NCBI GenBank assembly: GCA_964036665.1
Contig: OZ038530.1
Location: 9,140,501 to 9,204,500, forward strand
Length of the DNA stretch: 64,000 bases
Source: Gordius sp. MW1
Lineage: Eukaryota > Nematomorpha > Gordioida > Gordea > Gordiidae
Reading direction: 5' to 3'
Shown here one piece after another: positions 34,201 to 61,245 of this stretch. The notes under the pieces are model-generated. The model was not told the DNA's origin, did not search any database, and was given only the letters and a program-made list of their open reading frames with translations. The stretch's first letter is position 1, and each line of letters starts with the position of its first letter. Position numbers and translations under genes: made by a program.

Positions 34201-37200
34201 TCATTATTTCCGCCAATTCACGACTTGTTTGGCGACCGTCCTCCTTCAAAAGTGCTCTGAGACACTCTTCGTCGAATTCCGAGGGTCTTCCACTACGGGG
34301 CTTGTCAGCGATGTAAAAATCGCCATTTTTGAACTTTGCGAACCATTTTTGTATGTAGACTCAACTATGACACCTTCTCTGTATACTTTTCAAATGTCTC
34401 GGGCTGTTTCAGCAGCGTTTTGACCACGATGAAAAGCGAAGAATAGCAGGTGTCGATAATGTTGATTTTTACCGTTTGGATACTCCATTTTGACGTCGCG
34501 AAAGTTATAAAAAACTAAATTTCTTAAAATCACGATTGGCACAGTTTTGTAGAGGGGAAAGAGTTCTACTTAATGAATATTAAATTCATCAGAAGCAAAA
34601 AATCGATAAAATAATTCAACCGAACTTTCTCCTCAACCCAATGGAGCCATCGGACCCCGCCTTGGAGGGACGTATGCGTCCTGATGGATCTTCTTTAGTC
34701 CCATGGAGCAATGGTCTTCACCTTAAATGGGACTTCACATGTATTGACCTATTTGCCCCCTCTAACTGCAACAATGATTCTTTAGCTGTTGCAGAGGGGC
34801 GGAAAACCAATAAATACAAAGCCCTATTATCCTCAAATATTTTTATTCCATTGGTTGCTTCGTGTTCAGGCACCTTTGGCAAACAGGCCTTAGCTTTTTT
34901 TAAAGAGGTTGGAAGACGTTCTCCCCCGTCTAAACATTCGGTACCCTTTTTACTAAAACAAAGACTTGGTATTCTTATAGCCAAGTACAACTTTAAATCG
35001 TTCGCGGATTCTTGGCCAATTTTGGAAGATCCCCTCGATGATGATATATCCGAATAGTGTATTATTTTATTCGGCGCATTTTGCCTTTTTATATTATATT
35101 ACTGTCAGCGGATTTTTAACAAATAAACTTTAACAAAAAAAAAAAAAAAAAAAAATAGTTTCAGATTAAATTTTTAATGATAAAAGCTTTAATTTGATTT
35201 GCGAGCAAACAATGAAGAAATAGGGTAAATATTTTCACTAAGATCACACGTAATTGTTCAAATTTTATTGCTCGCCAACTTAGTCTTAAATATTATGGGA
35301 AAACTCTAATTAAGCAAAATATATACCTAGGCTGAACGTATATGGTGAAGGCGTTGTAAACGGGCAGGCCGGCTCTATTTATGGCGGCTAGCATAAATTC
35401 GTGCAAACCGATGTTGGCTAATGCGGGTAAACCGTAGAACTGTTGGGTCGTAGGGTCGAATTTGATCCAGGCGTATCTAAACGCGCAAAGAGGCAAAGCA
35501 TGTGTTAAGTAATTTTTATTTTAAAAGCAAAAGAACATACGTCACCTATACATTAATTGTGGCCTTGGGCAGGAATCAAACGAATTAGATGCGAGCAACG
35601 GTCAGCATAATTTGCAAAGAATTATTTAGCCAATTCCGCAATAATCCGATTTAAAGCAACAGCACAGATTAATTCTCAAAAGGATTCAATATATAAAGGT
35701 AGTAGGTCGGGCGCAAAAACAATAATGAATTTAGACTCGGACGAGGTCCAAAAAATTAAAACCAACCAGTGGTCATTAGCTTGAAGATGCAAAATAAATG
35801 TCTTTTACAGAAGCATAAGAGTCCACAGCCATTAATATCCCGTATAGGTTTCCACAGCAATGATTTGAAAAATAAGAAGTTGGACAGGACGGATGGACAA
35901 CCAAAAACGATCCCATATATTGCATGGCAATTAAAAGTGTAAATGCACAATTTGAATAAGTAATGTTAGTTGTGTCAACAATATTTAAACGGTTGGGAAA
36001 AGAGCCAAAAAAAATTTTATGAGTCCCCTTTATTTAAAAGTTATTGGCAGAAGTGATCAACTTATTGGTTACCATTAGATGCGTGAAAAAATATACGGTC
36101 GAAACTTCTTAATCGCAAATCGGATTATCGCGAAAATCTTTTAATCGCGAAGTTAACCGCCATTTTGTTTTTTTAAACGATAATATTAACAAAAACATCG
36201 TTTATTGACAAATCGCTTAATAGTACAATATCGGATATTCACAAACATCTTCGAGTCCTTAAATCAACCAGATAATTATATAAAACATCGTTTTATTGCG
36301 AAGCGTAAGAAATGAATATTTAATATAATCAGAGCTGTTAAGAACTAGTTCATTTTGAACTAGTTCATAGAACTAGTTCATTTTTTTCTGAACTTAGAAC
36401 TGAACTAGTTACCTTCCCAAAAATTTGAACTGTGAACTTGAACTAGTTCATTTTTTTAAGATTGAACTTGAACTTGAACTAGTTATTTTTTTCTAATTCT
36501 GAACTTGAACTTGAACTATACAATGTAATTGAACTAGTTCATCACAAATATATTATTTAAAATAAATTTATAAGCCGAGTGTATATGCGTCAACAATTTG
36601 ACGTGCATGGTCTTGTCGGTAATCATACAGACACACAGTAACCGCAAATTTTTGATTTTAAAAACACAAAATTTTTTAGAAAAGATGGATACCATTTCTG
36701 AAGTAGATAATAGGAACGAGGCAGCTCAATCTACCTTTTTACCTTGGCCTTCAATGGAAGAATACTTCAAATATGTATCTTCAGATAAAGATTCATTCAA
36801 AGTTAAGTGCAAACTATGCACTAAAGTTGTGGCGGCTTCAAGAACCTCAACAGCCAATTTATGGAGACATATAAAGGTAATAAGAATAACGTATTATAAT
36901 TTATAATATAAAATCTAGGTGTCTCACTATCAAAAACATGATGAGATTAAGAAGGCTGTCAAGAATAAGGCTGGAAAAAGTTGTGAAGCTAACAAAAAGT
37001 TAACACAGACCTTAATTGACAGGCCTTTAAACCAAAATTCCCCAATGGCCATTATCAAATATATAATCAATGGTAATCAACCATTTTCGCTATGTGATGA
37101 TGAGCACTTCAATGAATTGTTGAGGGCTTTTAATCCAAAAGCAAAAACAATTTGTAGGCAAACACTCACAGGGAAGGTGATGAAATTTGCTGCAAAGATG

Positions 37201-50475: not shown

Positions 50476-50900
50476 TGTTAACTGCTAAGTAAAAAATTAC
50501 AAATTGCTAAGTAATTTATGCTAATTATTTTAATTAAAGTGCTAAGTATTTTATTAAAAAATGCTAAATATTTTATGCTATGTATTTTAATCTAAATGCT
50601 AAGTATTTAAAGGAAGTGCTAAGTTTTTTATTTTACAATGCTAATTTTTTTTATTAAATTAAGTTTTTATTTTGATATGCTAAGTTTTTTTATGCTAAGA
50701 AGTTTATTAAAAAAAATTTAAGCCATGAATTTTAAACAAAATGCTGAGTATTAAAAAATAAGATAATAAAGTTTTAAAGCTAAAAAGGGCAAAATTTTAA
50801 TGGTAATAATTTCAAAGAAAATGTTTAATTTTTAAAAATGCTAGAAAATGCTAGGTTTTCTAGTATGAAGTGCTAACTTATTACGCTAATACTAAAGTTT
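50476..50900. repeat. Degenerate GCTAAGTATTT array
   Basis: More than ten irregular copies of gctaagtatttta or variants. The last part (ttcaaagaaaatgtttaatt, then aaaatgctagg) recurs at 52692-52745 on the far side of the Gypsy fragment. Its inverse, acttagcaaat, forms an array at 54190-54545. Confidence 0.7.
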
Positions 50901-52750: not shown

Positions 52751-54041
52751 TTGGGTTGAGGAGAAAGTTCGGTAGGGTGCCACACATGTTGCATTATTTT
52801 ATCGATTTTTTGCTTCTGATGAATTATATAATATTCATTAAGTAGAACACTTTCCCCTCTAGAAAACTGTGCCAATCGTGATTTTAAGAAATTTTGTTTT
52901 TATAACTTTCGCGACGTCAAAATGGAGTATCCAAACAGTAAAAATCAACATTTTAGACACCTGCTATTCTTCGATTTTTATCGTGGTCAAAACGCTGCTG
53001 AAACAGCCCGAGACATTTGTAAAGTATACGGAGAAGGTGTCATAGTTGAGTCTACAGCACAAAAATGGTTCGCAAAGTTCAAAAATGGCGATTTTGACAT
53101 CGCTGACAAGCCCCGTAGCGGAAAACCCTCGGAATTCGACGAAGAGTGTCTCAGAGCACTTTTAAAGGAGGACAGTCGCCAAAAAGTCGTGAATTGGCGG
53201 AAATAATGAAGTTCGATCAGAAAACCACCCTAAATCATCTTCATTCGATGGAATTTACCGAAAAATTAGGATTTTGGATCCCTCACGAGCTTAACGAAAG
53301 CCACAAAGAAAATCGCCTTCAAGTTGCTTCTCAACATCTCGCCCGTCATCGAGCAACCCGTGGTCATAAACAGCGCTTTTTGTACCGAATCGTCACGGGA
53401 GATGAGAAATGGTGTTTGTACGTAAATTTGAAGCAAAGAAAGGAGTGGGTGGCTCCTGGAGTGACTTCAAAGCCGAGGGTCTAGCCTGACCTCCATCCAA
53501 AAAAAGACCATGATCTGCGCTTGGTGGGACTGGGAGGGCATTCTGCATTGGGAAATTCTGGAAAGGAATGCCACGGTCAACAAGGAGCTCTATATATCCA
53601 AGCTACACCTGAATGAGGCTATTCGACTCAAAATCCCCCATCGACAAGGCCAGACCATACTCCTTCACGGCAACGCAAGGCCCCATGTTGCTTAAGTCGT
53701 AAAAGCCGCACTCCAAGAGCTCGAATGGGAGGTCCTTCAGCATCCACCATATTCTCCGGACCTTGCACCGACGGATTACCATCTTTTCCGTTCTCTCTCG
53801 AACCATATGAGGGGCGTTACCTTGGACAATGTAGAGGGCCTTAAAAACTGGCTCAACAACTTCTTCGATACCAGACCTGTCGATTTCTGGCGTAATGGCA
53901 TCGAAAAATTGATCAAAAGGTGGGAGGAGGTCGTAAACAGCATCGGCGAATATATTATTGAGTAAGTTATTGTTATAACAATAAATAATCGTTAAATAAA
54001 AGACTTTGATAAAAACTCTACGAACTTTTTCCTCAACCTAA
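52751..54041 (+). mobile_element. Mariner element, full length, inactive
   Basis: 1291 bp. Ends ttgggttgaggagaaagttc and gaactttttcctcaacctaa, flanked by TA at 52749-52750 and 54042-54043. It is nested between the Gypsy region and the acttagc array. Confidence 0.92.
52922..53965 (+). pseudogene. Mariner transposase pseudogene
   Basis: ATG at 52922 (MEYPNSKNQHFRH). The HTH region is intact to about 53187, where a frameshift breaks DSRQ...SRELAEI. In-frame stops follow after KPRV (about 53481) and after HVA (about 53693). The second catalytic Asp reads Gly in LLHGNARPHVA. WWDWEG and SPDLAPTDYHLF remain, and the end EEVVNSIGEYIIE is preserved. It is dead by several independent lesions. Confidence 0.88.
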
Positions 54042-54189
54042 TACTTTAAAATACTAATTGGTGTGTGATCTTGGCGCCAAAGAACGCCAATTATTGTCCG
54101 TTTACAATGTCATATTAAATGTTTGATAAAAAAGACAGCTTAATTTGTTTTAAAATTTATAAAATCTTTTGAATATTTACCATAATTTA

Positions 54190-54545
54190 TTTATAAACCT
54201 AGCATATAATTTAAATACTTAGCTTTATTTAAATACTTAGCAAATAATTTAAATACTTGGCACAATTTAATTAAATACTTAGCAATAATTTAAATACCTA
54301 ACATAATAATAATTAGCACATAATTTAAATACTTAGCAAAACATTAAGATACTTAGCAAATATATAAAATATTTGGCAAATAAATAAAATACTTAGCAAA
54401 ACAATAAAATACTTAGCAAAATTTATTTAAATACTTAGCAAATGAACAAAATACTTAGCATTTGAATTTAAAACTTATAATTAATTTTAAAACTTAGCAA
54501 ACGAATTAAATACGTAGCAATGACGCTTAAAATACTTAGCAAATA
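54190..54545. repeat. Degenerate AAATACTTAGC array
   Basis: Fifteen or more irregular copies of aaatacttagcaaa. It is the inverse of the unit in 50476-50900, so the two arrays flank 50.5-54.5 kb in inverted orientation. Confidence 0.75.
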
Positions 54546-54664
54546 ATCTGGTGTGCTTTTAAGATAGAAGTTTCCATTTTAAAATATTTGTACAAATTAC
54601 CCCAATGCTCGTCAAGAACGCACCTATTTAAAAGTTTGGCACAATTACGCGTGACTTTTTAAAT

Positions 54665-55390
54665 ATTAATTGCTATGCAATTTATGGGCTCGTTTTTGGT
54701 TGTCCGTTGTCCGTTGTCCGTTGTCCTCCCTATCTATTTGCATTGGGTATATTAGGTTATCGCTTTTTTAAATTTCTATTAATTGCTATGCAATTTATGG
54801 GCTCTCCGTTGTCCGTCCGTTGTCCGTTGTCCTCCCTATCTATTTGCATTGGGTATATTAGGTTATCGCTTTTTTTTAAATTTCTATTAATTGCTATGCA
54901 ATTTATGGGCTCGTGTTTGGTTGTCTGTTGTCCGTTGTCCGTTGTCCGTTGTCCGTTGTCCTCCCTATCTATTTGCATTGGGTATATTAGGTTATCGCTT
55001 TTTTAAATTTCTATTAATTGCTATGCATTTTATGGGCTCTCCGTTGTCCGTCCGTTGTCCGTTGTCCGTTCGTTGTCCTCCCTATCTATTTGCATTGGGT
55101 AGTCCGTTGTCCGTCCGTTGTCCTCCATATCTATTTGCATTGGGTATATTAGGTTATCGCTTTTTTAAATTTCTATTAATTGCTATGCAATTTATGGGCT
55201 CGTTATTGGTTGTCCGTTGTTCGTCCGTTGTCCGTTGTCCGTTGTCCTCCCTATCTATTTGCATTGGGTATATTAGGTTATCGCTTTTTTAAATTTCTAT
55301 TAATTGCTATGCAATTTATGGGCTCGTTTTTGGTTGTCCGTTGTCCGTCCGTGTCCGTTGTCCGTTGTCCTCCCTATCTATTTGCATTGG
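54665..55390 (+). repeat. Tandem array A (about 110-125 bp units)
   Basis: About six units, each starting attaattgctatgcaattta then tgggctc, followed by a variable (gtccgtt)n tract and tcctccctatctatttgcat then tgggtatattaggttatcgc. Unit length varies with the number of ttgtccg heptamers. Open frames across it are repeat artefacts. Confidence 0.92.
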
Positions 55391-56220
55391 GTTTTTTTTC
55401 GTTTTTTTTTGACTATTATGATTGTTCCTGTTACTACCATTGCTATTATGACTTTTTGGCCGTCCGCTGGCTCCTGACCGATGAAAAAATGACCATTGGC
55501 CAAAATGTGAATCAAAATTATTTTTTTCGTTTTTTTTTACTATTATGATTGTTCCTGTTACTACCATTGCTATTATGACTTTTTGGCCGTCCGCTGGCTG
55601 CTGACCAATGAAAAAAATGACCATTGGCCAAAATGTGAATCGAAATTGTTTTGTTCGTTTTTTTTTGACTATTATGATTGTTCTGTTACTACCATTGCTA
55701 TTATGACTTTTTGGCCGTCCGCTGGCTCCTGACCGATGGAAAAAATGACCATTGGCCAAAATGTGAATCAAAATTATTTTTTTCGTTTTTTTTTGACTAT
55801 TATGATTGTTCCTGTTACTACCATTGCTATCATGACTTTTTGGCCGTCCGCTGGCTGCTGACCAATGGAATAAAATGACCATTGGCCAAAATGTGATTCG
55901 AAAACTTTTTTTTCGTTTTTTTTTGACTATTATGAATTTATATCCACTTTTACCGTGTCCTGGCTGCTGACCAATGGAAAAAAATGATCATTGGCCAAAA
56001 TGTGATTCGAAAATTTTTTTTTCGTTTTTTTTACTCTTATGAATTTATATCCACTTTTACCGTGTGCTGGCTGCCGACCAATGGAAAAAAATGACCATTG
56101 GCCAAAGTGAACATCAAAATTTTTTTTCCGTTTTTTTTAGCTATCATTGACTTATAGAGTATCTGTTGGTACTGACCAATAGAGAAAAAGTGACCATTGG
56201 CCAAATTTTTGATTTTTTTA
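55391..56220 (+). repeat. Tandem array B, left arm (about 128-bp units)
   Basis: Units run ttttttgactattatgattg, ttcctgttactaccattgct, attatgactttttggccgtc, cgctggctcctgacc and atgaccattggccaaaatgt, with six or more copies degenerating toward the palindrome centre. Non-coding. Confidence 0.92.
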
Positions 56221-56577
56221 ATTAAAAATTGTTCAAATTTAACAAAAAATTTCTCCCAACAATTCTGCAAATTCTTAACATTGTGTTGTTTTATAATATA
56301 ATGTTTGTTAGACCCATAATCACGGAAGGGGGGACGACTCATCTGTACTTCGTATAAATGTATCATATTTGCTATGCAATTTATGGGCGAGAAAGGTGGG
56401 AAGGGGCGAGAATGCCTATAGGGGGGTATTAAATGCCTAATGATTGATTAATTATTTATACAAATTTTCCATTATAGGCAAAATGTAATATAGGCAAAAT
56501 GTAATATAGGCAAGGGTTAGGGTTAGATTTAGTGTTTGCTTCTAGTTGCGTATTACATTAGTTTTTATGGCCTTTAG

Positions 56578-57668
56578 TGATTATGGGTCTAACAAACTTT
56601 ATATTATAAAACAACACAATGTTAAGAATTTGCAGAATTGTTGGGAGAAATTTTTTGTTGAATTTGAACAATTTTTAATTAAAAAAATCAAAAATTTGGC
56701 CAATGGTCACTTTTTCTCTATTGGTCAGTACCAACAGATACTCTATAAGTCAATGATAGCCAAAAAAAACGGAAAAAAAAAATTTTGATGCTCACTTTGG
56801 CCAATGGTCATTTTTTTCCATTGGTCAGCAGCCAGCACACGGTTTAAGTGGATATAAATTCATAAGAGTACAAAAAACGAAAAAAAAATTTTCGAATCAC
56901 ATTTTGGCCAATGGTCATTTTTTTCCATTGGTCAGCAGCCAGGACACGGTAAAAGTGGATATAAATTCATAATAGTCAAAAAAAAACGAAAAGAAAGTTT
57001 TCGAATCACATTTTGGCCAATGGTCATTTTATTCCATTGGTCAGCAGCCAGCGGACGGCCAAAAAGTCATAATAGCAATGGTAGTAACAGGAACAATCAT
57101 AATAGTCAAAAAAAAAACGAAAAAAATAATTTCGATTCACATTTTGGCCAATGGTCATTTTTTCCATCGGTCAGGAGCCAGCGGACGGCCAAAAAGTCAT
57201 AATAGCAATGGTAGTAACAGGAACAATCATAATAGTCAAAAAAAACGAAAAAAATAATTTCGATTCACATTTTGGCCAATGGTCATTTTTTTCATTGGTC
57301 AGCAGCCAACGGACGGCCAAAAAGTCTTATTATCAATGATAGTAACAAGAACAATCAGAAGAGTCAAAAAAAACTCAGGGATTCTAACCCAAAAACTAGT
57401 TAAATTGCATAGCAATTAGAAGTAAACAACTTTTATTTATGTTTATTATATAACATTGGTCAGCAGCCAGCGGACGGCCAAAAAGTCATAATAGCAATGG
57501 TAGAAACAGGAACAATCATAATAATCAAAAAAACCGAAAAAAATAATTTCGATTCACATTTTGGCCAATGGTCATTTTTTTCATTGGTCAGCAGCCAGCG
57601 GACGGCCAAAAATTCTTATTATCAATGATAGTAACAAGAACAATCATAAGAGTCAAAAAAACTCCGGG
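56578..57668 (-). repeat. Tandem array B, inverted right arm
   Basis: Same units as 55391-56220 in reverse complement (tttggccaatggtcattttt, ggacggccaaaaagtcataa, caggaacaatcataatag), about seven copies, plus the mirrored single-copy segment 56578-56690. Confidence 0.92.
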
Positions 57669-57916
57669 ATTCTAACCCCAAAACTAGTTAAATTGCATAG
57701 CAATTAAAAGTAAACAACTTTTATTTATGTTTATTATATAACTAGTTAAATTGCATAGCATTAAAAGTAAACAACTTTTATCTATGTTTATTATATAACA
57801 AAAACTAGTTAAATTGCATAGCAATTAAAAGTAAACAACTTTTATTTATGTTTATTATATAACTAGTTAAATTGCATAGCAATTAAAAAACTTTTATTTA
57901 TGTTTATTATATAATA
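57394..57916 (-). repeat. ATTGCATAGCAATTA minisatellite (about 57 bp)
   Basis: actagttaaattgcatagca, then attaaaagtaaacaactttt and atttatgtttattatata: one copy at 57394-57452 and four in tandem at 57683-57916. Confidence 0.88.
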
Positions 57917-57984
57917 GATAATTTAACAAATCTTATATATAACACACCGAGGGAGAGAGAGATGAGGGGTGGGGCACCTCTTTC

Positions 57985-58115
57985 TCATGCATAGCAATTA
58001 AAAAGCGATAACCTAATATACCCAATGCAAATAGATGGGGAGGACAACGGACAACGGACGGACAACGGACGGACAACGGACAACCAAAAACGAGCCCATA
58101 AATTGCATAGCAATT
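57985..58115 (-). repeat. Array A unit, inverted
   Basis: Reverse complement of an array A unit: aaaaagcgataacctaatat, cccaatgcaaatagatgggg, (ggacaac)n, then cgagcccataaattgcatag. It closes the palindrome. Confidence 0.9.
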
Positions 58116-58337
58116 AATATTAAAAATTTTTCTACATCTCCTTACGGCCACTTGTATTTTATTTATCAGGTTAAAAGATGAAAATTTGAATTTTTAAGCG
58201 GCTACTTGGGTGTGTATATTACGCAATATCAAAACTTACTTATATTAATAAACATTTAACATGCCAAATGTGAATCACAAAAAAATACACAATTAAATTT
58301 GATATATTATGTTGGTTGATTAAGATATTTTTAAGCC

Positions 58338-58465: not shown

Positions 58466-59585
58466 TATTAATTGCTATGCAATTTATGGGATCACTTTCC
58501 ATTTTGTTTGTCCCCCTATTCGGTGTCTTGCATTCGGTGTCTTGTCTTGTTTATTCGGTTTGCATTCGGTATCTTGTTTTGTTTACTTTTAATTTTTGTT
58601 AATTTAACCAGTTTTTGCGTTCGAATCCCGGGTTTTTTTTGACTATTATGATTGTTCCTGTTACTACCAATGTTATTATGACTTTTTGGCCGTCCGTTGA
58701 GTGCTGACCGATGGAAAAAAATGACCATTGGCCAAAATGTGAATCTAAGTTTATTTTTTTGTTTTTTTTCGACTATTATGATTGTTCCTGTTACTACCAT
58801 TGCTATTATGACTTTTTGGCCGTCCGTTGGGTGCTGACCAATGAAAAAAAAGGCCATTGGCCTAAATGTGAATCCAAGTTTATTTTTTCGTTTTTTTTCG
58901 ACTATTATGATTGTTCCTGTTACTACCATTGCTATTATGACTTTTTGGCCGTCCGTTGGGTGCTGACCAATGGAAAAAAATGACCATTGGCCAAAATGTG
59001 AATCCAAGTTTATTTTTTCGTTTTTTTTCGACTATTATGATTGTTCCTGTTACTACCATTGCTATTATGACTTTTTGGCCGTCCGTTGGGTGCTGTCCGA
59101 TGGAAAAACATGACCATTGGCCAAAATGTGAAACGAAATTATTTTTTTCGTTTTTTTTGACTCTTATGATTGTTCCTGTTACTACCGATGCTATTATGAC
59201 TTTTTGGCCGTCCGTTGGCTACTGACCACTGTAAAAAAATGACCATTGGCCAAAATGTGATTCGAACATTTTTTTTTCTCCTTTTTTTCGCTAACATTGA
59301 TTTATAGACCATCTGTTGGTACTGACCAATCAAAAAAAATGCCCATTGGCCAAAATGTGATTCGAAATTTTTTTTTCATTATTGTTTTGACTATTATAAA
59401 TTTATATCCACTTTTAACGTGTACTGGCTGCTGACCAATGAAAAAAATGACCATTGGCCAAAATGTGAATCCAAGTTTATTTTTTCGTTTTTTTGACTAT
59501 TATGATTGTTCCTGTTACTACCATTGCTATTATGACTTTTTGGCCGTCCGTTGGGTGCTGACCAATGGAAAAAAATGACCTTAGG
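58466..59585 (+). repeat. Second array B (direct orientation)
   Basis: Begins with another attgctatgcaatttatggg (58470), then cattcggt-type repeats, a tRNA B-box-like gcgttcgaatcccggg (58618-58633), and about seven B units (ttcgactattatgattgttc, ggccgtccgttgggtgctga). Unit sequence differs slightly from the palindrome arms (ccgttgggtgctg versus ccgctggctgctg). Confidence 0.88.
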
Positions 59586-59589
59586 TAAC

Positions 59590-60520
59590 TTTTTATGTTT
59601 GTTATTAAGTTTTATTAATTATATTGTCTGGGTTTCTAAATTTTTAATTGATTTTATTACGTTTTTCGTTGCTTTTTCTATTTTTATATGTTCAAAATTT
59701 ATAAATTTTACTCGAAATTTAAATTTTAGATAAATAGCTCTAATCCCATTTCCGAAATTTTAATATGAAATTCCAACAATATTCTTCCATTTATAACTAC
59801 TTCCCTAAAAAAATAACTTTTCAATGGAGAAAAGTAGTAGAAAAGTAGTAGCCAGGGTAATTTACAAATTATTATAAATCACTCGAGATTAACATAGAGA
59901 TCAGGCAGGATCAGGGTTATAATATAAGCTAAATATAAATAGATTCTAGAATCTATTTCCATATAAAAAGAAAGATTAAGTATTTGTTATATCTTTCTTA
60001 GTTAATCGTTCATCTATTTCAGCTAAACCTAATTTAAAAAGGCATTATACAACAACGAGATGTTGTAATAGGCTTCGGGGCTCAAAAAAAAGCTAATAGA
60101 TCATTTTTGAATATACCATTTTTGAATATCTATACTATTTTATTTTTAAATATCTTATTAATTAATCTAATTATTATTACATCTTATATTTAAAAGTCAT
60201 ATTTTTGAATATCTAACCCATTTTCATATATTTAAATTTTATTTTCAAATTTGCTATGCGGCATACACCTCATAAGACATCAAGTACATTAGGGTCTAAA
60301 TTTTTTATTAGCTTTTTTCTGATCATATTTCCTAGATACGCCTATGACAGTAAACAAAAGTATGTTTTTAAATTCACTTGACGGCGTCGCGCATCTGTGC
60401 ATCACATCACATCACATTATCGATTAATTTATTATAAAGGGGAGAGAGGGGAGGGGAAAGGGGAGAAACAGTAGAGCCCCTTATAATTCTAATCCTGCTT
60501 ACGTCATGCAAATAAAATTG
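59590..60520. other. Gene-free AT-rich stretch
   Basis: No gene. Includes G-rich ggggagagaggggagggg at about 60438 and a degenerate MITE right half near 60480-60510. Confidence 0.4.
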
Positions 60521-60524
60521 TTAT

Positions 60525-60638
60525 TTAGCACAACGCTCTCTCCTAAAAATTTTAGCCAAAGTTTTAATAAATTTCAAATTAATTATGGATTTAAAGGGGG
60601 CAACTGCCCCTCTTTGCCACCCACTGGCTACGCCGATG
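60525..60638. mobile_element. MITE fragment, CATGGGCGTAGCC family
   Basis: The right half resembles the family (tagccaaagttttaataaat, gatttaaagggggcaactgc, actggctacgccgatg). The left terminal repeat is not clear. Confidence 0.45.
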
Positions 60639-60688
60639 TTTATTTGTACCTTCAAGGTCGATAGATATTAGGCTTATTATCTCTATAC

Positions 60689-60725
60689 ATGGGTGAAGCC
60701 AGGTTTTGGATTGGGGGGGGGGCAA
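60689..60725. mobile_element. MITE left-end fragment
   Basis: catgggtgaagccaggtttt followed by a G run and ggcaaaac. The right end is not found. Confidence 0.35.
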
Positions 60726-60974
60726 AACATTTAAAAGTAAAAATAATATTTAAACTCATTTATTTATAATTATTTATTATTTATACATTAAGGTATATAT
60801 TTTTTCTTTTTAACTTTCTTTTTAGGGTTTCTATGAAATCACAATCTAATTAAATGAAATATATTAACCCAGTAAAAAAATATATATACTTTTATAAGGT
60901 TAAAAATATATAACATAGTTGGCTGTCTTAGCCAAGGGGGAAACCCTAGTAATTATCCTACCCCCTATAGGGAT

Positions 60975-61065
60975 TCTAGCCCCTTCTCACCTTTCTCGCC
61001 CATAAATTGCATAGCAAATAAGCTACATTTATACGTAGAATAGATCAGTCGTCCCCTCTTCCCTT
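60975..61065 (-). repeat. ATTGCTATGCAAT-type end with GAGAAAGG flank
   Basis: In reverse orientation: ggggacgactgatctattct, tatttgctatgcaatttatg, ggcgagaaaggtgagaaggg. The same sequence, with small differences, lies in the palindrome spacer at 56335-56405. Confidence 0.8.
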
Positions 61066-61074
61066 CTCCCCCTT

Positions 61075-61245
61075 CTCCGGGGGTCTGGGGGCGGAGCCCC
61101 CAGGAGATGGGGGTTTGGGGGCGTAGCCCCCAACGGGGGTTTGGGGGCAGAGCCCCCAACGGGGGACTGGGGGCGGAGCCCCCAGCAGGGGGTTTGGGGG
61201 CGAAGCCCCCAAGGGGGCCTGGGGGCGAAGCCCCCAGTTACGCCC
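61075..61245. repeat. GC-rich hairpin minisatellite
   Basis: About six units of 27-28 bp built on the palindrome gggggcggagccccc (variants gggggcgtagccccc, gggggcgaagccccc) separated by caacgggggtttg-like links. It ends gttacgcccgaagggcgtat. Strikingly GC-rich for this window. Confidence 0.92.

Follow-up and report, generated by a model that had tools for sequence, protein, structure and literature searches.

HINEs, the non-autonomous Helentrons, have subterminal repeats that are palindromic and lie 2-4 nt inside the 5' end, matched by an inverted partner whose distance from the 3' end is 38-60 bp. A palindrome is present at the 3' end, the DNA targeted is rich in T, the number of flanking Ts varies, and some copies include tandem repeats (PMC4067079). 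Their oyster members, the Cg_HINEs, contain GTCY/GTCC microsatellites and central satellite-like arrays (PMC7492417).

We compare with these systems a 3.4-kb palindrome in Gordius sp. MW1. It lies at 54665-58115 of the stretch analysed, a 64,000-nucleotide piece of contig OZ038530.1 (positions 9,140,501 to 9,204,500, forward strand), which we call the window and whose coordinates are used throughout. A first-pass annotation of the same sequence had described array A, array B, a spacer, inverted B and inverted A, had assigned the whole to no standard element type, and had proposed either a mobile element carrying satellites or an inverted duplication. We conclude that the structure is not a new element type; it is an uncommon but expected arrangement. 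Very probably it consists of two Helentron-like non-autonomous (HINE) copies that inserted separately, tail to tail, and were then joined by one central deletion.

The inverted repeat and its two halves

The palindrome itself is real. Inverted BLAST within 54665-58115 gave a best score of 1315 bits, whereas 17 equal-length stretches of window positions 1-51451 gave only 0-110 bits. Long inverted arms were found at 55770-56138/56764-57132 (369 nt, 95%), 56120-56329/56571-56780 (210 nt, 98%) and 55484-55666/57109-57291 (183 nt, 96%). When 54665-56323 and 56571-58115 are aligned end to end, 1,202 of 1,284 shared columns are identical (93.6%), with 636 gap columns. As the first-pass annotation had recorded, both arms hold tandem arrays, which TRF also finds, and the mirror symmetry includes single-copy sequence beside the spacer, which falls inside the inverted matches. 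It extends to the outermost bases too: on reading the sequence, the structure opens at 54665 with ATTAATTGC and closes at 58118 with GCAATTAAT. The features of the two halves are these:

54665 to 56323, plus strand: left element, a HINE-like copy with its 5' end at 54665, six 5' modules and a B array; 3' end truncated
54665 to 55392, plus strand: A array of six 5' modules (TRF, motif scan, sequence)
54668 to 54688, plus strand: E5, the 5' subterminal motif AATTGCTATGCAATTTATGGG, containing the imperfect palindrome ATTGC-TAT-GCAAT (motif scan)
55393 to 56144, plus strand: B array of central tandem repeats (TRF rows 55393-55935 and 55850-56144)
56323 to 56324, no strand: tail-to-tail junction, AATCAC followed by GGAAGG (genome search, comparison with locus L010)
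56324 to 58118, minus strand: right element, a HINE-like copy with its 5' end at 58118; 3' end truncated
56368 to 56388, plus strand: 3' subterminal inverted repeat of the right element, TTTGCTATGCAATTTATGGGC (motif scan)
56762 to 57661, minus strand: B array of the right element (TRF rows 56762-57052 and 56967-57373; inverted matches up to 57661; sequence)
57682 to 57921, minus strand: C array of 58-bp units, most with the palindrome ATTGCATAGCAAT (TRF, motif scan); no C array was found in the left element
58013 to 58118, minus strand: single 5' module of the right element, with E5 at 58095-58115 (motif scan, sequence)

In the left element the motif scan places E5 at 54668, 54781, 54889, 55016 (one mismatch), 55178 and 55302. 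Each A-array module consists of E5, a (GTTGTCC/GTCC)n run and TCCCTATCTATTTGCATTGGGT, with slight variation, and the B units that follow measure about 128 bp at first and about 107 bp thereafter. On the right, the B array is broken by one C-type unit near 57374-57453.

The layout is thus less symmetric than had been noted. Inverted arms and arrays are present as described, but A is mirrored as a single unit and not as an array, the right arm having one full unit of the 5' motif (58095-58115) against six A units in the left. The right arm contains the 58-bp array, and TRF finds none in the left. Nor is the spacer neutral: 56324-56570 belongs to the right-hand element, whose 3' part it forms. 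A fold-back assembly artefact of the simple kind is unlikely, given that sequence and array content both vary between the arms.

A very common non-coding unit with HINE-like anatomy

Copies elsewhere in the genome reveal the full unit, which begins (A)TTAATTGCTATGCAATTTATGGGC and finishes in a GC hairpin, GGGCCGAAGGCCCGAGT. At locus L010 the order is (A)TTAATTGCTATGCAATTTATGGGC, (GTCC/GTTGTCC)n, tandem arrays, a single-copy core, the inverted 5' motif, a pyrimidine-rich stretch, and the hairpin end (E3) GGGCCGAAGGCCCGAG followed by T. The palindromic subterminal repeat near the 5' end, ATT followed by AATTGCTATGCAATT, stands at 54665 and, in reverse, at 58118; the same motif is found at the 5' ends of the seven copies L002-L008, the exact first base of the element being uncertain by a few T or A. 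An Rfam search of the window returned no matches.

The element is non-coding and very common. With at most one mismatch, TTAATTGCTATGCAATTTATGGGC has 9,347 genome hits and the hairpin end GGGCCGAAGGCCCGAG has 4,591, and the reversed control has none in either case. The first figure is not an element count, because some copies reiterate the 5' motif internally. On contig C1 up to 4.09 Mb, 44 of 78 hairpin ends have a same-strand E5 0.1-6 kb upstream and 34 do not, a pairing that used the first 100 hits for E5 and, of the 100 listed for E3, the first 78. Same-strand clusters of the 5' motif, spaced 29-362 bp apart, also occur in the first 4.1 Mb of this contig (for example at 324422-325058 and 2683971-2684424) and resemble the A array of the left arm; the 5' modules apparently multiply by themselves.

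Among 31 copies bounded by E5 and E3, 27 are 1,652-1,976 bp long (range 768-2,604), and in all 31 the 3' subterminal repeat precedes the 3' end by 84-133 bp, with a median of 97. With E3 paired to the nearest 5' motif, TT precedes all 31 copies and T follows all 31 (TT in 27, TA in 4); when the outermost 5' motif is taken instead, TT precedes 26 of 29. Neither sample is random, since most of the loci were retrieved with the two halves of the palindrome as queries. Clean empty sites at paralogous loci, seen in the pairs L006/L038 and L014/L047 (also L014/L006), have no target duplication, barring Ts that are ambiguous between element and target; the alignments of two further pairs, L004/L016 and L022/L046, were too poor to use.

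Canonical Helitrons begin with TC and end with CTRR. These ends are absent from the Gordius unit, which has (A)TTAATTGC and CCCGAGT. By its anatomy the unit matches a HINE, a putative non-autonomous Helentron of the same kind as DINE-1 in flies and pearl/Cg_HINE in bivalves. Like the mite HINE-Mo and Culex HINE-Cq (Thomas et al. 2014, PMC4067079), it has palindromic 5' subterminal repeats, an inverted 3' partner, a 3' hairpin, a T-rich target left unmodified and a variable number of flanking Ts, and some of its copies hold tandem repeats. It differs in the position of the 3' subterminal repeat, 84-133 bp from the end with a pyrimidine-rich stretch between, compared with 38-60 bp in the mite HINEs of that account. 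With Cg_HINE/pearl it has in common a 5' module ending in a GTCY/GTCC microsatellite, a satellite-like array, and a 3' module that contains both a subterminal repeat and a palindrome; its reiteration of the 5' motif within arrays A and C does not figure in the part of the Cg_HINE description used (PMC7492417). Drosophila DINE-1 likewise has subterminal repeats, a microsatellite, central repeats, a 3' stem-loop and a preference for TT, but its short inverted repeat is separate, whereas the Gordius subterminal repeats are palindromic as in mites (PMC4067079). HINE/Helentron anatomy is recognizable in each half of the palindrome, contrary to the view that no standard element type fits. The idea of a mobile element carrying satellites holds for each half as well, but not for the whole, which comprises two elements, tail to tail, and not one.

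We also looked for an autonomous partner. Genome matches to Helitron_like_N were scored for 150 of 714 candidates, and 20 Helitron-domain loci (L034-L053) were scanned for E5 and E3 ends; none had both around its gene. The sequence scanned for 12 of the 20 (L034-L045) reaches 1.5 kb beyond the domain in each direction, and their ends may be further out. That no autonomous partner was identified among the 20 loci is a point of difference from HINE-Mo and HINE-Cq. One coding family (L046/L048) has CTAG where similarity stops, judged by eye, as in canonical Helitrons, and at L047 a non-coding copy is inserted directly after a Helitron gene. Two longer E5-E3 spans considered as autonomous candidates, L055 and L056, proved to be clustered or tandem copies, and no Helitron gene was seen by eye among their ORFs of more than 110 aa. 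Separately, EPSDPALEGRMRPDGSSLVPW is common to ORF fragments at window 34584-35057 and at L056:2900-3607, inside the E5/E3-bounded stretch. By eye the fragment looks like part of a retroelement; if it is one, its presence in L056 would reflect capture or nested insertion.

The junction and the origin of the two arms

A DNA search of the 211.8-Mb genome (12 contigs) gave no fewer than 43 further matches that are 1.2 kb or longer and 90-98% identical, a lower bound with the best 40 candidates scored. All 43 listed matches begin at query position 1659 or later, and 35 begin at 1659-1660, which is window 56323-56324, inside what had been called the spacer. In the seven copies read (L002-L008), a purine-rich stretch lies beyond this point, then the hairpin CTCGGGCCTTCGGCCCTCG or a near variant, then AT-rich DNA. 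Searched on its own, the junction sequence had one exact genome hit and two further hits with two mismatches each (the reversed control had three hits). It is unique in the genome, and a second copy of the whole palindrome was not found there.

These results bear on a foldback transposon like FB or Galileo. Such a transposon would be a single element whose terminal inverted repeats are long and built of tandem units, mobilized by a transposase binding those units. In Foldback and Galileo the whole inverted-arm unit is dispersed, with a target-site duplication. The Gordius locus resembles them in outline, with long inverted arms of tandem repeats around a spacer. Unlike them, it has no second whole-palindrome copy, no clear target duplication and no sister arms: the junction is unique, the single-copy empty sites lack a clear duplication, and the long matches listed start at query position 1659 or beyond, the copies read finishing there in their own hairpin. 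We regard a foldback element as extremely unlikely.

The relation of the arms speaks to a second alternative, local inverted duplication or fold-back replication of a single element, the other origin that the first-pass annotation had proposed. The arms are indeed similar and inverted, but many other copies are as close to each of them. Over a 554-bp segment they are 97.47% identical, which ranks only 15th of 31 comparisons from the left arm and 16th of 31 from the right; L010, L015 and L002 are equally close to the left arm (98.37%). Across 55300-56323 (1,028 columns) the left element is 97.8% identical to L010. A tree of this segment does not recover the arms as sisters; it places the right arm with L004 and L005 (support 99/90, on a short branch) and the left in no resolved group, in a topology where 22 of 29 inner branches are drawn open, most forks are weak and the bootstrap had not settled. 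The 32 rows comprise 29 of the 31 element loci (L002-L008 and L010-L033, with L019 as two rows) and the two arms; L011 and L030, which do not span the segment, were left out, and L001/L009 are the window itself. Array content, too, is unlike between the arms. Origin by inverted duplication is accordingly very unlikely.

L010 has a complete 3' end, and comparison with it reveals what the two halves lack: 324 bp of 3' end on the left and 71 bp, hairpin included, on the right. The unique junction, the non-sister arms and a tail-to-tail pair elsewhere that keeps both 3' ends (below) lead us to favor separate insertions followed by a central deletion. This order of events is a reconstruction, no unrearranged allele of the locus having been seen. 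Two HINE-type elements would have inserted separately, near each other and in opposite orientation, each mobilized by a Rep/helicase of Helentron/Helitron type supplied in trans. Transposition would involve a nick at the 5' end, displacement, a halt at the 3' hairpin, and entry into T-rich DNA without duplication. A single deletion would then have removed the 324 and 71 bp, as measured on L010, together with anything between, taking both hairpin ends and leaving the unique junction at 56323/56324. Long palindromes tend to be unstable at the centre. Because both 3' ends are lost, the composite should no longer be mobile. That it is instead a rolling-circle chimera that has a 5' end on each side, lacks any 3' end and still moves (for example if replication started from both ends of a hairpin-forming unit), has a next to negligible probability.

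Two other readings would account for the tail-to-tail join. In a chromosomal inversion, two distant copies would have been broken and rejoined, with a reciprocal junction elsewhere; breaks inside two copies would, we reason, yield the present layout. However, the predicted reciprocal junction (TTATGGCCTTTA, then CTTCCC at most five bases on) had no exact hits, a search that mismatched or base-deleted forms would escape, and we consider an inversion breakpoint improbable. An assembly or chimeric-read artefact would be conceivable here, where both sides of the join belong to a repeat family that numbers thousands of copies. Yet the arms are not near-identical, as they would be in a fold-back read; by eye the junction has no clear microhomology and no shared overlap to cause a misjoin; and another tail-to-tail pair is known in the genome. 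An artefact therefore has a very low probability.

Paired copies, neighbors and significance

The other pair is L054 (C1:2657200-2661900), in which two copies lie tail to tail, 36 bp apart, with both hairpins intact; their 5' ends were not found within the 4.7 kb examined. This pair is the type of precursor that separate insertion followed by deletion needs. All chance figures given here assume uniform scatter. For 4,591 3' ends, about 10 tail-to-tail pairs are expected within 415 bp and about 15 within 600 bp, so such neighbors are to be expected. A genome search for exact hairpin ends 0-30 bp apart found no tail-to-tail pairs, with about 0.8 expected; the spacing of L054 lies just beyond the limit of that search.

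Head-to-tail pairs at most 12 bp apart number 136 genome-wide, and the reversed pattern gave none. About 2.8 are expected, as calculated by hand from motif counts of 2,419/2,473 and 9,152/9,399, or 1.3 when longer motifs than the search pattern are used. Tandem Helitron clusters have been described and attributed to transposition that runs past the termination signal, as the suggested origin (PMC4067079). Head-to-tail pairs would also result from insertion into the T run beside a 5' end. The head-to-tail excess, the hairpin end, the T-rich target and the lack of a clear duplication together lead us to infer that the unit probably transposes by a rolling-circle route.

A further element lies close to the palindrome:

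58467 to 61238, plus strand: third element, probably of the same kind, with E5 at 58470, a B array at 58632-59503 and a 3' subterminal repeat at 60999-61019

At its 3' end a different GC hairpin, ending CTGGGGGCGAAGCCCCCAG, is repeated about six times in tandem, and about 1.4 kb between its array and its 3' part (59581-60960) has no BLAST match to the L010 element. On the other side of the palindrome, 50479-50705 and 54189-54547 are inverted arrays of an AT-rich unit of about 20 bp (TAAATACTTAGCA and TGCTAAGTATTTA), whose longer matches are 68-75% alike. A mariner-type fragment (HTH_48, 52832-53206) lies between them, and arrays and fragment may form a separate element with repeated inverted ends.

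Overall, the palindrome requires no new mechanism: neighboring insertion and one deletion of a satellite-carrying, high-copy element can produce a large inverted repeat that mimics a new element type. With its thousands of motif copies, its reiterated 5' modules and head-to-tail pairs roughly fifty times over a rough chance estimate, the family is useful for asking how Helentron-like elements seed satellites.
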